Positions 1 to 5,461 of a DNA stretch of 20,884 nucleotides are shown here, one piece after another. The stretch comes from a virus. Under the pieces are notes generated by a model. It did no database searches. It was given only the letters and a program-made list of their open reading frames with translations, and was not told the origin of the DNA. Numbering within the stretch: the stretch's first letter is position 1; every line of letters begins with the position of its first letter. The DNA lies in the IMG/VR virus record IMGVR_UViG_3300030389_002398, positions 1 through 20,884 of that record; one strand, given 5' to 3'. Position numbers and translations under genes: made by a program.

Positions 1-1
1 T

Positions 2-250
2 AATGGTTTTCAGGCTGACGACATTGCAATTTTACAGCATGAGGTAAACCAAGCTTTGGGGAGACGCATCGGAGAAAAGAGAGATGCTATCAAAGAATTA
101 GAGAAAATGCCGCAAGTGGATAATTTAGATTGCATCATTGCATCACCGCCAAAGGTGATTAGGTTTCTTGAAGAACTTATGGAACAGCTTGAGCGTGATC
201 AAGATTATGTTAATCAACATTTGGGCAGGGTTTTAAAACAAATTTCATAG
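2..250 (+). CDS. Hypothetical protein, C-terminal part (5' end outside window)
   Basis: The frame is open from base 2 without a convincing start, so this is the last 82 residues of a gene entering from the left. A TTG at 56 is in frame but has no ribosome binding site. The visible protein is charged and helical (segments GEKRDAIKELEKM and FLEELMEQLERDQDYV), which suggests a coiled coil or a small phage regulatory or accessory protein. I recognise no family. It runs toward the minus-strand gene ending at 357, and two hairpins separate the two. Confidence 0.6.
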   Translation, partial: NGFQADDIAILQHEVNQALGRRIGEKRDAIKELEKMPQVDNLDCIIASPPKVIRFLEELMEQLERDQDYVNQHLGRVLKQIS

Positions 251-259
251 TGATAGTAT

Positions 260-307
260 GGGGTAGAGATGGGCTTGGGACCGGCTAGTTAAAAAATTCT
301 CTACCCC
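260..307. repeat. 10-bp perfect inverted repeat, 28-nt loop
   Basis: GGGGTAGAGA at 260-269 is the exact reverse complement of TCTCTACCCC at 298-307. It lies between two convergent genes just after the stop at 250. The loop is long and there is no T-run after the right arm, so it is not a canonical terminator. It could be an RNA stem or a protein site. Confidence 0.6.
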
Positions 308-330
308 GTACATAATACGCATATGAGTAA

Positions 331-358
331 GGGGCGGTTTATACCCGCCCCCATTTTT
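331..358 (+). terminator. Rho-independent terminator between convergent genes
   Basis: GGGGCGG (331-337) pairs with CCGCCCC (345-351) around a 7-nt loop and is followed by CA and TTTTT (354-358). The orientation fits termination of the gene ending at 250. The T-run overlaps the stop codon of the minus-strand gene. On the minus strand the hairpin has no U-tract. Confidence 0.7.
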
Positions 359-740
359 AAAGATAACCGTTAAGCAATGCATTCATATAGCCTTCACTCT
401 TTTCTTTTTGCTTGGGGTTTCTTAGTGATTCGATTCGTCTTCTCTCTGCGATAACATATTCATTATCTTTACCAGATGGCAGACGGTTGCCTTGTCCGCA
501 CAATCCTAAGTTACCTCGATAAGGCTCGTTTACATCCATAGAATAATTGAAGCTTGTCAGAAAGTTTTCATCATCGAAGTCTGGATCAACAATATCGTAA
601 TGTGCTTGCAGTTCGTTCATACTATTTACGTTAATGCGATTTAGCACATTTAGTCTACGGGTAGTTCGAGCATCGTTATTAATAATACTCTTACTGTGTT
701 TTGGAATGGGGCCAATATCTTCCTCTTTTTCTAAACTCAT
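357..740 (-). CDS. Hypothetical protein (127 aa)
   Basis: This is the only convincing minus-strand gene in the window. On the coding strand AAGGAT followed by an A-run sits just before the ATG at 740, a good ribosome binding site. The protein is polar with no membrane segment. An Asp-rich centre (DPDFDDENF) and a basic Arg/Lys/Glu-rich helix near the C-terminus (ERRRIESLRNPKQKEK) stand out. I recognise no family. It is divergent from the cyclotransferase operon across a short shared promoter region with a symmetric repeat, so it could be a co-regulated or regulatory protein; that is inference from position. Confidence 0.7.
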   Translation of the reverse strand: MSLEKEEDIGPIPKHSKSIINNDARTTRRLNVLNRINVNSMNELQAHYDIVDPDFDDENFLTSFNYSMDVNEPYRGNLGLCGQGNRLPSGKDNEYVIAERRRIESLRNPKQKEKSEGYMNALLNGYL

Positions 741-774
741 TTTTTTATCCTTTTTATTGAAAATGTTTTCCTAT

Positions 775-815
775 ACTATTGACTATGGACTATACATTAC
801 TATATTGTCAATAGT
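775..815. promoter_or_regulatory. Divergent promoter region with 9-bp inverted repeat (putative operator)
   Basis: ACTATTGAC (775-783) and GTCAATAGT (807-815) are perfect inverted copies separated by 23 bp. A plus-strand promoter fits inside: TTGACT (779-784), 16-bp spacer, TATATT (801-806). On the minus strand TTGACA (806-811) reads toward the 740 gene, with a weaker CATAGT at 782-787, so two face-to-face promoters would overlap. Each arm of the repeat covers one -35 box. This is what an operator shared by two divergent promoters would look like. The regulator is unknown. Confidence 0.6.
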
Positions 816-848
816 GTGATGAACAAAATTTATGAAAGGAATATCACA

Positions 849-1304
849 ATGAGTAAATTATATTTGGCCTACGGGTCTAATCTTAATAAAAAGCAAATGG
901 CTGTACGATGTCCAACTGCCAGGCCCGTTGGCTCTGCTATGATTTATGGTTGGGAACTCGTGTTTCGCGGCGTTGCTGACATTGTTAAATCAAAAGATGA
1001 AAACATGTGTGTGCCTGTCGGTCTTTGGGAACTTGAGCCAGAAGACGAATTGTCTTTAGATGTTTATGAAGGCTATCGTTATCCTCATGACAGTAATCTT
1101 TACGACAAGATTAAAGTCGCTGGTATCATGACTTACCAAATGACATCAGATGGCATCTATGCACCTAGTACATCTTACTTTAACTCTATCTTAGAGGGTT
1201 ATCGTGATTTTGGGCTAGATACTAGCTATCTGTACGATTCGGCTGGTTGGGCTGGGTATCAAAGCAATCAGTCTGACAACGTGTTTGGATTGGAGGCTGT
1301 GTAA
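849..1304 (+). CDS. Gamma-glutamylcyclotransferase-like protein (GGCT/AIG2-like fold)
   Basis: This 151-aa protein has the hallmarks of the gamma-glutamylcyclotransferase superfamily, whose members release 5-oxoproline from gamma-glutamyl amides. The N-terminus carries the substrate-loop signature YGSNL (residues 8-12) followed by a typical RCP motif. LDVYEG at 70-75 places the likely catalytic glutamate at E74. The tail PSTSYFNSILEGYRDFGL is also typical. The ATG at 849 is chosen because GAAAGGA (834-840) lies at proper spacing; a GTG at 816 in frame has no such site. It heads a four-gene operon, with its stop overlapping the next start. In bacteria such enzymes are known to neighbour amidoligases, and a predicted amidoligase lies at 4340. 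The true substrate is unknown. Confidence 0.85.
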   Translation: MSKLYLAYGSNLNKKQMAVRCPTARPVGSAMIYGWELVFRGVADIVKSKDENMCVPVGLWELEPEDELSLDVYEGYRYPHDSNLYDKIKVAGIMTYQMTSDGIYAPSTSYFNSILEGYRDFGLDTSYLYDSAGWAGYQSNQSDNVFGLEAV

Positions 1305-1525
1305 TGGACTATGAAAAAATGTATGACCGTCTACTTGATGTAACTGAAGAGTTTAACAAGCAAGGCGCAACGCCTTTTCAAGTCGCAAATGTTATGTCAA
1401 GGTTCGTGGTCGAATTATCATTTGACTGCGCCCCTGATCCAAGACAAGCAACTCATTTAATTATGACTGCGATTACTGATCGCTTTGACCGTGATTTTGA
1501 TGAAGAAATGAAAGAGAGCGCATAA
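1304..1525 (+). CDS. Hypothetical protein (73 aa), cyclotransferase operon
   Basis: The ATG overlaps the stop of the cyclotransferase gene in a TAATG, implying translational coupling. The protein is soluble, acidic and mostly helical, with no membrane segment or recognisable motif; its C-terminus is strongly acidic (DFDEEMKESA). It is followed by another TAATG overlap. I do not recognise the family. The context suggests an accessory early gene. Confidence 0.75.
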   Translation: MDYEKMYDRLLDVTEEFNKQGATPFQVANVMSRFVVELSFDCAPDPRQATHLIMTAITDRFDRDFDEEMKESA

Positions 1526-1647
1526 TGAGCATGATGCAAAAGGTTTACAAAGTTGTTCGACAGTATCTTAATAAAGAGGAAGCCAGATATTTTGCTATCA
1601 GGTTTACTGAAATTAAACTGAAAGACAAAAAGGAGATTAAGGAATGA
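1525..1647 (+). CDS. Small basic protein (40 aa)
   Basis: A short frame that fills the gap between two genes exactly: its ATG overlaps the upstream stop (TAATG at 1523-1527) and its TGA overlaps the next ATG (ATGA at 1644-1647). The product begins MSMMQKVYKVVRQY and ends in a Lys-rich helix (KLKDKKEIKE), pI clearly basic. No family is recognised. The double overlap is the main support for it being translated. Its 3' end also carries AAAGGAG and AAGGA, which serve as ribosome binding sites for the following gene. Confidence 0.6.
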   Translation: MSMMQKVYKVVRQYLNKEEARYFAIRFTEIKLKDKKEIKE

Positions 1648-1835
1648 TTTATAAAGGCATTTCTTGGGCTTGCATTTTGTTCGGCCTGATTTTGTTCGGA
1701 TCGTCTTATGAACTTCTCAAATACCAGCAAACTGCTGGTGAGATTGTCGCCATGATTATGGTCGGAATTATGGGTTCTGTTGTTATCGTAATGGGCCTGT
1801 TTGGATTGTGGGAACTAAGACGTAAAAAAGCCTGA
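1644..1835 (+). CDS. Small two-helix membrane protein
   Basis: 63 aa with two predicted membrane segments (about residues 7-22 and 34-54) and a positively charged tail (LRRKKA), consistent with insertion in the inner membrane. AAAGGAG and AAGGA precede the ATG, and the gene overlaps the previous one by ATGA. Small two-helix phage proteins of this shape are sometimes holins or superinfection or membrane-modifying proteins, but there is no family signature and no endolysin nearby, so I leave the function open. It is the last gene of the operon that starts at 849; its stop lies inside the left arm of a 15-bp inverted repeat. Confidence 0.7.
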   Translation: MIYKGISWACILFGLILFGSSYELLKYQQTAGEIVAMIMVGIMGSVVIVMGLFGLWELRRKKA

Positions 1836-1877
1836 TTTACTGTCACGCTGTCAACTGTCAAATGACAGTAAATCAGG
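1831..1877. repeat. 15-bp perfect inverted repeat overlapping the operon end
   Basis: Arms at 1831-1845 and 1863-1877 are exact reverse complements (left arm CCTGATTTACTGTCA). The 17-nt loop holds two more copies of the CTGTCA motif. The left arm includes the stop codon of the membrane-protein gene. No T-run follows either arm, so a cruciform or protein-binding role is more likely than termination, although the stem could shield the 3' end of the mRNA. Confidence 0.75.
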
Positions 1878-2040
1878 TGACAGTAAAATGTTTATATTTA
1901 TCAGATAGTTATGACCTTACTGTCACAACTGTCAAGTTAAAGTAAAAAGTGTGACAGTTTGTGTAACTTGTTGTAATCATTGCAACTATCACAACTGTCA
2001 CAACTGTCATATATATATATATGTATGGGGACATGACAGT
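1839..2040. repeat. Iteron-like cluster of ACTGTCA/TGACAGT
   Basis: Ten exact copies of the heptamer lie in about 200 bp. Forward (ACTGTCA): 1839, 1854, 1919, 1928, 1994, 2003. Reverse (TGACAGT): 1863, 1878, 1952, 2034. One-mismatch copies start at 1847 and 1985. Three copies extend to TCACAACTGTCA (1923-1934, 1989-2000, 1998-2009), and adjacent copies are spaced 9 bp apart. The cluster runs into an AT-rich alternating tract (about 2009-2026) and lies just before terS. Candidate roles are a replication origin with iterons, a terminase recognition (pac/cos) site, or a multi-operator control region. Nothing in the sequence decides between them. Confidence 0.85.
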
Positions 2041-2054
2041 CCCCCATATATATA
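2018..2054 (+). promoter_or_regulatory. Strong hairpin in the terS leader
   Basis: Bases 2018-2032 pair with 2039-2054 through 15 base pairs with one bulged C (2045) and one G-T wobble. The six-base loop is ATGACA, so the last TGACAGT repeat spans loop and stem. The GC core is GGGGAC/GTCCCC and the outer stem is alternating AT. It ends about 20 nt before the terS start. It could extrude as a cruciform or act as a leader stem controlling terS translation. Confidence 0.6.
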
Positions 2055-2075
2055 ACTAAAATGGAGAGTGTTTTC

Positions 2076-2591
2076 ATGCCGCAAGCAGGTGAAGATTTAA
2101 CCAAAGAACAACGTCATGCTGGATTGAAAAAACTAACACCTCAACAGCAAAAATTTCTTAACAACTATTTCAATGGAGATATGACGCAAACAGGAGCGGC
2201 CAGAGAAGCAGGGTATAAAAATGCCTCTGTAAGTGCTGTAAGGCTGTTGCGTAATCCTGTGGTGCAGGAACGTCTGGAAGAGATGAGACTCGAAGCCAGA
2301 ACAAAATATGGGGTTACTATCGACAAGTCTGTAAGAGACTTAAAGCAGATGAGAGATCAGGCTTGGGAACTCGGCAGGTTCGGGGAAGCTATTCGGGCTG
2401 AAGAGCTAAGATTAAAAGCAACTGGACTACTGGTTAATAAAAGCCATGTCATGCACGAAGACGTAACGCAAATGGGCAGAGAGCAAGTTCTTGAAAAACT
2501 TGAGGAGTTTAAGCGCATGGCCCAACGTAGAATGAAAGACATAACGCCAGCATCTAATGATGTGGTGGATATAGCAGAAGATAATAAATAA
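2076..2591 (+). CDS. terS: Terminase small subunit-like protein (TerS)
   Basis: 171 aa. The N-terminal region LTPQQQKFLNNYFNGDMTQ followed by GAAREAGY and VSAVRLLRNPVVQERLEE is the classic helix-turn-helix head of the terminase small subunit (Terminase_2-type), which recognises phage DNA and loads the large subunit. A helical oligomerisation region follows, and the C-terminus is polar and acidic. I chose the ATG at 2076 because GGAGAG (2063-2068) lies 7 nt before it; the in-frame ATG at 2061 has no binding site. TerL lies nearly 6 kb away at 8492, instead of next door. The repeat cluster directly upstream is a candidate binding region, though in many phages the site lies inside the gene. Confidence 0.85.
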   Translation: MPQAGEDLTKEQRHAGLKKLTPQQQKFLNNYFNGDMTQTGAAREAGYKNASVSAVRLLRNPVVQERLEEMRLEARTKYGVTIDKSVRDLKQMRDQAWELGRFGEAIRAEELRLKATGLLVNKSHVMHEDVTQMGREQVLEKLEEFKRMAQRRMKDITPASNDVVDIAEDNK

Positions 2592-2797
2592 AGCCATAAT
2601 CGGGCATGTAACACCGTTTCGGGGGGTAGGCGAGGACTTTCGGGGTCGGGGATCGGGCTTGTTCCTGGAGTTTTGTGCAAAATGTTCGGGTTTTTCGGGG
2701 TCGGGCCTTCGGGCTTGGCCTTTTTTGCGTGCTGCGTCCCAGGAGGGCAGCAAAAAATGTTCGGGTTCGGGGTGCTGCTGCCTGGAGATCGGGGTAT

Positions 2798-2819
2798 AAC
2801 CCGAATATTTGTTCGGGTT
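2798..2819. repeat. Palindromic CCCGAA...TTCGGG element, copy 1
   Basis: AACCCGAA (2798-2805) and TTCGGGTT (2812-2819) are perfect inverted arms around TATTTG. The core matches CGAAYAWWTGTTCG, shared with the copies at 3003, 3940 and 16553. Confidence 0.65.
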
Positions 2820-3002
2820 TTTGGGCCACGCGCCAGGGAGACTTGCCTGGCTGCCTGGAGTGATCGCCAGGGAAAAGCTTTCGGGCCTCGGGCTTTACAA
2901 ATAATTGTTCGGGTTTCGGGACTTTTGCCTGGCTGCTCTTCCTGGTCTAAGACATCAGCCCCAGGCAAACCTCATCTCTATCCTGGTGATAAGGAAAAAA
3001 CC

Positions 3003-3016
3003 CGAACAATTGTTCG
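3003..3016. repeat. Palindromic CGAACAATTGTTCG element, copy 2
   Basis: A perfect 14-bp palindrome, about 130 bp upstream of the gene at 3144. It has the CGAAC-N4-GTTCG layout of the Gram-positive-type LexA box, but no regulator in the window can be tied to it. Confidence 0.65.
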
Positions 3017-3088
3017 ATTTTGTCCAGGCGACCAGCCAGGTGGGCATATGATACTTTTTTGGTTTTATGTGTTTTTTTTCTTGATTAA

Positions 3089-3811: not shown

Positions 3812-3837
3812 GACCCGCCTTGCGCGGGTCTTTTTTT
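3812..3837 (+). terminator. Rho-independent terminator
   Basis: GACCCGC (3812-3818) pairs with GCGGGTC (3824-3830) around CTTGC and is followed by seven T residues (3831-3837). It closes the 3144-3781 operon. Confidence 0.9.
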
Positions 3838-3838
3838 G

Positions 3839-3876
3839 TTCGGGTTTCGGGTTCGGGTTTCGGGTTCGGGTTCGGG
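3839..3876. repeat. Near-tandem TTCGGG array (six copies)
   Basis: TTCGGG starts at 3839, 3846, 3852, 3859, 3865 and 3871, that is every 6 or 7 bp, directly after a terminator. One further copy is at 3893. The same motif dominates the gene-free island at 2600-3016. Confidence 0.85.
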
Positions 3877-3890
3877 CCTTCATTGTAATT

Positions 3891-3955
3891 TGTTCGGGTT
3901 TGAGCTGCGGGCCGTGCTGAGCTGCTGCGGGCCAATAACCCGAACATTTGTTCGG
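3891..3955. repeat. Nested inverted repeats of the TGTTCGGG family
   Basis: TGTTCGGGTT (3891-3900) and AACCCGAACA (3937-3946) are perfect inverted copies. Between them GCTGCGGGCC occurs twice (3904-3913 and 3924-3933). The right arm is shared with a second palindrome, CCGAACA-TT-TGTTCGG (3940-3955), so two alternative hairpins compete for the same bases. The next 90 bp are AT-rich and lead into the promoter at 4047. Confidence 0.7.
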
Positions 3956-4046
3956 AAAAAATTATTTTTGAATCAGCTCAATAATTTTGAATCTAAAAAC
4001 GTCTACATGATGAGACAAAAAAAGATCTGAAAATGTTCGGATAATG

Positions 4047-4339: not shown

Positions 4340-5461
4340 ATGAAACATCTAGAACAAGGTTTTATGGTATCAGGTAGCGAGTGTGAAATAGGTGATGTCC
4401 CACCTGATCGTGCTACATCTGCTTTAAATGATGCTGGAATCAACGGCGTTTGGGTAACAACAGACGCATCTGGCGGGGTCTCAGCTGAAATAGTTTTTCC
4501 GCCGTTGCCAATATTTCATCCGCGCACAAAAGAATTTTATGAGTCTGTTTACAGAGTCTTAGATTCGATTGGTGCTGATATTAACACTGGCTGTGGTCAT
4601 CATGTAAGCTTTAGCACAGCACAAGTGACCAATATGTCTGAAGATGAATTTTTTGATCATGCGATCAACTTGGCTAGTTCTACTGATTACCACGATCCAA
4701 ACTCTGCAAAATATCCAAGCGGGGATCTTTATGGTGATCCAATGCCTTTTGAATTGGTAAAAGATGTTGTCTATAGGTACGGATTGCATCAACGTGACAT
4801 TAACCGCATGTTGCCAGATTCTCGGCATGATAACAGCATGTGTTATGAATTATATAACAAGGTCAGGCATAATGATTTTGATCGTATGGATAACGTGACT
4901 CGTTTGTCTAGTCACCTAGGCGGGAAATTCGCCGCTATAAATCTGAGTAAGTTTAACAGCGGCATCATTGAGTTCAGACAACATGCGGGAACTACAGATG
5001 CTGAAAAGATCTTTAATTGGATCGAATTAATTCAAAATATGTTTCAATGGTCTGATAATAACAGACTGTCTTATGACAGTTCGCAAACGACTCCGGAAAT
5101 GCCTTATAGAAGAGTATCAAAAAAAGGCGTTGCTTGGGCATTATGCAGAACTTCAAACGGTGCAAGTGTTCAGGACATTATGGATCGAGTCGGATGGACT
5201 GCTAACGATGTTCGCAGAACTATCTGTGAATTTAGACGCGAGCAAGGCTCAGATGATATTGTCCAAACAATTAGCCAATTAAACAACGGCGCATCACATG
5301 GAGACGGCCCGACTCACACTCGCTACATTATCAGAGAGACGCTAGGCAATGGGATCTCATTATTGCCAGAAAATCAGATTGGACAGACTAGCGTTTTTGC
5401 TGGACTATCAGATGAATGCTTTGAATACATGCAACAACGAATAATCACGCTAGGTCATTAG
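4340..5461 (+). CDS. Amidoligase-family protein with C-terminal winged-helix-like domain
   Basis: 373 aa. Residues 1-240 show the layout of the amidoligase family (Amidoligase_2, glutamate-cysteine-ligase/glutamine-synthetase-like fold). There is a GxExE metal-binding motif at 12-16 (GSECE), AEIVFPPL at 49-56, a TGCGHHVS strand at 83-90, and the signature IEFRQHAGT at 210-218 followed by a helix with FNWIEL. These enzymes are predicted ATP-dependent ligases joining an amine to a carboxylate, often a glutamate side chain. Residues 260-310 hold a helix-turn-helix-like domain homologous to the 68-aa protein encoded just upstream. The remaining 60 residues are unassigned. AGGAG precedes the ATG and a terminator follows. 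The natural substrate could be a phage or host protein, peptidoglycan peptide or small metabolite. Confidence 0.82.
   Translation: MKHLEQGFMVSGSECEIGDVPPDRATSALNDAGINGVWVTTDASGGVSAEIVFPPLPIFHPRTKEFYESVYRVLDSIGADINTGCGHHVSFSTAQVTNMSEDEFFDHAINLASSTDYHDPNSAKYPSGDLYGDPMPFELVKDVVYRYGLHQRDINRMLPDSRHDNSMCYELYNKVRHNDFDRMDNVTRLSSHLGGKFAAINLSKFNSGIIEFRQHAGTTDAEKIFNWIELIQNMFQWSDNNRLSYDSSQTTPEMPYRRVSKKGVAWALCRTSNGASVQDIMDRVGWTANDVRRTICEFRREQGSDDIVQTISQLNNGASHGDGPTHTRYIIRETLGNGISLLPENQIGQTSVFAGLSDECFEYMQQRIITLGH

Follow-up and report, generated by a model that had tools for sequence, protein, structure and literature searches.

Results and discussion

A repeat array with origin-like architecture adjoins terS

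The DNA analysed here (20,884 nucleotides, hereafter the window) makes up nearly the entire 21.8-kb virus record IMGVR_UViG_3300030389_002398. It carries genes for the large terminase subunit (TerL), an SU10-type portal and a major head protein, a GroES-like gene listed among the open reading frames near 16 kb, and the small terminase gene terS (Terminase_2, PF03592; 2076–2591, plus strand), the reading frame of which opens at 2061, the alignment favouring a start at 2076. A DNA search of a phage collection left the window without a match; the closest TerL proteins in that collection (56–61%) are those of 023Pt_psg01, the pelagiphages HTVC027P and HTVC023P, and DSL-LC04. Searches of IMG/VR identified 65 loci with a close TerS, plus more distant clades, and the relatives analysed below are metagenomic contigs. 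Upstream, at 849–1304, lies a gamma-glutamyl cyclotransferase-like (AIG2) gene that is also present in 53 related contigs.

The region directly upstream of terS contains a dense array of the heptamer ACTGTCA. As the preliminary description had reported, there are ten exact copies, all within 1839–2040 (six on the plus and four on the minus strand), together with two near copies, two 9-bp tandems, a 15-bp perfect inverted repeat and an AT tract; the coordinates it gave for the cluster are right. That such a cluster is far beyond chance also holds: ACTGTCA occurs 16 times in the 20.9-kb window against 2.5 expected, the maximum in 100 shuffled sequences was 6, and the Poisson probability of ten copies in 202 bp is about 2e-23.

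We propose, on the strength of the repeats and of a layout kept in relatives, that positions 1831–2056 form an iteron replication origin consisting of array, AT tract and stem-loop. The left iteron cluster (1839–1884) has copies at 1839–1845 and 1854–1860 and the near copy GCTGTCA at 1847–1853 on the plus strand, and copies at 1863–1869 and 1878–1884 on the minus strand; the inverted repeat (1831–1877, with arms 1831–1845 and 1863–1877) holds iterons of this cluster. An IHF-like site, TATCAGATAGTTA (1899–1911, plus strand), follows with one mismatch to the consensus, which many relatives match perfectly at about the same position. The central iterons (1919–1958) comprise a tandem on the plus strand (1919–1925 and 1928–1934) and an inverted copy on the minus strand (1952–1958), and the right triplet (1985–2009, plus strand, 9-bp spacing) comprises the near copy ACTATCA at 1985–1991 and exact copies at 1994–2000 and 2003–2009. 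Several copies of a short repeat thus adjoin an AT-rich element, the (AT)n tract at 2009–2022, which is found in nearly all relatives of the first clade and is a candidate DNA unwinding element. Just past it lies a GC stem-loop, GGGGAC-ATGACA-GTCCCC (2027–2044, plus strand), with the repeat core in its loop and the inverted iteron at 2034–2040 (minus strand) included. Neither this stem-loop nor the conserved framework between the repeats, including the IHF-like site, was part of the preliminary description. A search of Rfam returned matches only far below the curated cut-offs.

Relatives keep the layout and switch the letters

The same array layout is found upstream of terS in about 60 related phage contigs, the comparison covering first-clade loci with enough upstream sequence. 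The left part is a two-orientation cluster, the centre a tandem pair with an inverted copy, and the right part a tandem group followed by a (TA)n tract and then a hairpin, which precedes terS or a small open reading frame ahead of terS. The framework between the repeats is conserved across these relatives, and the letters of the unit differ as a set, being ACTGTCA, ACTTGCA, ACTTTCA, ACTTACA, GGTTAGC, ACTTTGG, GGTTTGG, GGTTGCA or GGTATCA/GGTGTCA; a matrix of counts for ten unit heptamers is nearly diagonal. In a third clade, ACTTACC units stand upstream of terS in a comparable layout. A direct search for stems found a GC stem-loop with the type's own core in or beside the loop for every array type, and the stems of relatives have many sequences, with both sides altered in step and pairing preserved.

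The preliminary description had counted a lack of conservation of the repeats, in position or sequence, among close relatives as evidence against it. Position, orientation and framework are conserved, and the unit letters are not: they switch together with a putative DNA-binding domain, as described below. Because the letters change while the layout stays, divergence of the repeat sequence is a misleading sign against the array.

A single array was seen in each of G001 (54 kb), G002 and G004, records that may be incomplete. Pattern searches of IMG/VR for the array returned, by contig name, only contigs already in the set, with no satellite borrowing the origin seen among them. Two arrays are mixed. 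One contig (L028) has seven GGTTTGG units, mainly on the left, and three GGTTAGC units on the right, a mixture that points to an assembly chimera or else to recombination within the array itself. Another (L101, in G010) has seven GGTGTCA units plus AGGAACC/AGAACC tandems in place of the main unit of the others, and is perhaps an array in transition.

The C-terminal domain of a primase-helicase follows the unit

Conserved neighbour proteins were clustered into families, and each family was compared with the unit type. Divergence over whole proteins followed unit type only weakly in nearly all families and singled out none of them, because only a few residues carry the signal; family 13 alone scored high, on the basis of few, closely related phages. 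The sole neighbour found to follow the switches residue by residue is a Toprim/RepA-like primase-helicase, the gene of which lies a few kb upstream of terS; the signal is in the last 100 residues of the protein. The gene in our phage would lie beyond the left end of the record, and its product is taken from L094, which is about 95% identical over window positions 1–2632 and has its helicase gene about 1.1 kb beyond the point matching the left end of the window. Residue numbers below are those of L094.

Residue 649 is Q or M with units starting in AC and R or K with units starting in GG, and residue 657 is N, Q or S with AC units and E or A with GG units. Residues 671–678 vary with the core of the unit. 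At 673–678 the protein reads Q(S/A)(T/S)IDR with a TGTCA core, QY(T/I/V)ADQ with TTAGC, QWT(V/I)DQ with TTTGG, QHQMDR with TTGCA (DNVIGR in L009), QPQ(M/L)DR with TTACA, ESSIGR with TTTCA and TSSIDR with TATCA. In a scan of all 373 variable columns of the 724-residue helicase across 26 distinct proteins, 649 (MQ versus KR) and 657 (NQS versus AE) rank first for AC versus GG, both with perfect separation, and those ranking highest for the core are 674, 676, 678 and 671. A 12-residue window scan of the difference between different-unit and same-unit pairs peaks at 668 with an excess of 0.40, against a best excess of 0.12 outside the C-terminal domain. One contig with a discordant array, L014 (see below), was left out of both scans and of the tree that follows.

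Relatedness and exceptions

Per-column mutual information across all families is confounded by shared ancestry, which inflates the simple scores of other families, and it was therefore replaced by comparisons of close pairs, a tree and the window scan. The helicases of L105 and L107, the arrays of which are built from GGTTGCA and GGTTAGC, differ at none of 687 residues outside 645–680 and at 6 of 36 inside. Within the gene, the densest DNA changes between the two fall at the recognition helix, which lies in a moderately diverged stretch starting about 370 bases earlier. A second island, of 70–73% identity, is at the array; past the helicase gene there are indel or unalignable stretches, and the alignable DNA between helix and array is mostly 92–100% identical. 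Two pairs that share a unit show the opposite pattern, with 62 differences outside 645–680 and 1 inside (L098/L099) and 96 outside and 1 inside (L108/L109). On a tree built from residues 1–630, AC/GG switches five times, with the class of residue 649 in step each time, and the core and the helix undergo eleven changes each. The pairwise probabilities for switched pairs, which range from 8e-6 to 4e-9 in four of five (0.22 for L109/L110), are descriptive because the stretch 645–680 was picked from the same data; the column and window scans are less biased.

Three cases found after the pattern had been drawn agree with it. L217 (R649, QYIADQ) has GGTTAGC units in a flank that otherwise goes with ACT types, L234 (M649, QPQLDR) has ACTTACA units, and the third clade combines Q649/Q657 with ACTTACC, which counts as one ancestral state and not as many tests. 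One exception was seen in L014, where an ACTTGCA array accompanies a protein of the GGTTAGC type (R649/QYVADQ). The contigs closest to it at the helicase are not those closest at the array, and we therefore regard it as a mosaic, either natural or of assembly. In the more distant second clade, M649 goes with ACTTACA or ACTTACC but also with GGTTACA (L201, L202 and L206), so that residue 649 is no clean guide to the first two bases there.

The helicase and related replication systems

The helicase has a strong match to AAA_25 (PF13481) and a weak match to Toprim. Its match in the PDB is RSF1010 RepA (1g8y, E 2.4e-6), to which it is homologous, and it also matches primase/helicase PHROGs, phage WO RepA-like proteins and Rhizobium phage primase/helicase proteins. 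The C-terminal domain alone gave no clear sequence match in Pfam or the PDB. A full-length AlphaFold model is poor (mean pLDDT 53.8); with low confidence it places C-terminal helices at 623–641, 655–658 and 673–685 and strands at 689–693 and 701–705. This predicted helix-helix-helix-strand-strand order matches that of a winged helix, in which the tracking residues would fall at the start of the third helix. A scan of bacterial genomes turned up two closer homologues only, in MAGs of Maricaulis and Rhodobacteraceae, and no array was detected there.

The helicase of P4 alpha is of the SF3 type, and P4 uses two iteron regions, ori and crr. The helicase core seen here is AAA_25/RSF1010-RepA-like and not SF3, and one array was seen per genome in the three possibly incomplete records named above; moreover, in contrast to P4, the unit and the residues reading it switch together across at least nine types. 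In a single chain the protein has a strong AAA_25 match, a weak Toprim match, primase PHROG matches and a predicted winged helix, and may therefore be built along the lines of P4 alpha. P4 alpha itself combines primase, helicase and winged-helix domains in one polypeptide; the winged helix binds the origin repeats, and unwinding and priming follow (PMC4234260, which cites Ziegelin and Lanka 1995 and Yeo et al. 2002). The origin-binding function that we suggest for the present helicase thus has a precedent. Because the helicase class differs, we do not place the protein among the P4 alpha members, the proposed likeness being one of function.

RSF1010 (IncQ) resembles our phages in its RepA, to which the helicase is alike by sequence, and in the layout of its origin, where the iterons adjoin an AT-rich stretch and replication starts at hairpins. 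RSF1010 divides the work among three separate polypeptides, RepA, RepB' and RepC (PMC4234260), whereas here the primase-like region, the helicase and the iteron-tracking domain all lie in one protein. The phage WO protein gp5, described as 'similar to RepA of plasmid RSF1010', is homologous over 74–98% of the helicase at 39–43% identity. The pelagiphages HTVC023P and HTVC027P are among the nearest named relatives in the packaging module (TerL 56–59%), and a GroES co-chaperone gene is common to them and our phage, but their group has PolA, a different helicase and a different primase (PMC9599517), and the word 'iteron' is absent from that paper.

Coupled switching has been described in the PLE satellites of Vibrio cholerae, in which the DNA-binding domain of RepA_N varies in concert with the iterons of the origin and the two are exchanged as modules, an origin-directed nuclease being the likely pressure proposed (PMC8263062). 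There the switch involves the whole N-terminal domain, two groups and iterons of roughly 30 bp (PMC8263062). Here, by contrast, it occurs in the phage's own genome, with iterons of 7–9 bp, at least nine types and a few switched residues in a C-terminal domain.

A model for the array, and its alternatives

The array, its conserved layout, the coordinated changes of its letters and their residue-level coupling to one helicase domain are observed. From the layout and the coupling we conclude that the array is very probably an iteron replication origin, read by the C-terminal domain of this marine phage's own primase-helicase, with coupled switching of specificity; among the readings that the preliminary description had offered, a replication origin with iterons is thus strongly supported. 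Cumulative GC skew, which it had put forward as a check, tracks the gene strand and is uninformative on the origin. Binding, origin activity and the roles of AT tract and stem-loop are here judged from sequence. In this model, the winged-helix domain of the primase-helicase would bind the 7–9 bp iterons on both strands and thereby load the helicase beside the AT tract, which would then melt, and the loop of the adjoining hairpin would present the core once more, perhaps to mark where priming or loading takes place. Specificity would have two parts: residues 649 and 657 would distinguish AC from GG in the first two bases, and the recognition helix (671–678) would read the core that follows. Array and reading head would have changed jointly on many occasions, in at least one of them through the exchange of separate patches.

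Pac sites often lie directly upstream of terS, and the preliminary description had named a terminase recognition site. The TerS proteins of L097 (ACTTGCA) and L098 (GGTTAGC) are, however, identical at 170 of 170 residues, as are those of L004 (ACTTGCA) and L095 (ACTTTCA), and the TerS family shows no coupling to unit type. Since identical proteins face different arrays, TerS is not a sequence-specific reader of the repeats, and we reject that role; that the array is a pac site recognized by TerS is extremely improbable. Equally little credence can be given to an operator cluster for the XRE protein of the phage (5944–6315), which had also been raised. Its gene is a conserved downstream neighbour that encodes an HTH_3 domain, but the HTH segment is near-identical in G000 (ACTGTCA), L004 (ACTTGCA) and L008 (ACTTTCA), and across the family there is little sign of coupling with the unit.

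The array might instead serve as a control region or operator to which the same helicase domain, or some other regulator, binds in order to set when terS and the structural genes are transcribed late, with the origin elsewhere. Iterons can double as autoregulatory operators, and the array does sit between a small open reading frame and terS, with its hairpin just before the start codon. The coupled domain, on the other hand, belongs to a replicative primase-helicase and not to a typical regulator; the AT tract, the IHF-like site and the many repeats in two orientations suit an origin better; and the searches of G001, G002 and G004 showed no array besides this one. We consider this alternative unlikely. 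More improbable still is that linked inheritance alone produced the coupling, recombining segments having carried array and helicase along together with no direct recognition between them. The two are a few kb apart, these phages are mosaic, and common descent can raise simple association scores, as it does in other families. Linkage alone, however, fits poorly with a coupling limited to a few residues of one domain, with the 687 identical residues and the largely shared alignable DNA between helix and array in L105 and L107, and with the tracking of all five AC/GG switches on a tree of the rest of the protein.

If the array is an origin read by the primase-helicase, it bears on a long-standing puzzle, namely how an initiator changes its origin specificity when all iterons and the protein must change together. 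These phages offer natural material for it, in the form of nine or more specificities, a sub-site switched independently at least five times and a pair of helicases whose only differences fall within the reading domain, so that both a protein-DNA recognition code and the way in which initiators and origins evolve as pairs become directly testable, and the origin type of uncultured phages could be read from sequence. More speculatively, and with somewhat less than even confidence, we suggest that origin specificity evolves like an immunity type, array and reading head, kilobases apart, being exchanged together under a modular residue-to-base code. Selection could then favour origins that escape recognition by relatives infecting the same cell, or by parasites that target the origin, a pressure similar to the one proposed for the PLE satellites. 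Were such a code to hold, the origin sequence would be predictable from the protein, and the reverse.

Other observations

In the replication module of G001, a C-5 cytosine methyltransferase is encoded (L068, 6253–7272), which is present in some relatives and not in all. Two intergenic stretches of the window (2590–3060 and 3835–3960) are rich in TTCGGG/TCGGGTTCGGG-like and CCTGG/CCAGG repeats, and similar GC-rich repeats occur in relatives. The gene at 4340–5461 encodes an Amidoligase_2 protein with a weak C-terminal match to DUF3489; roughly half of the related contigs have it too.
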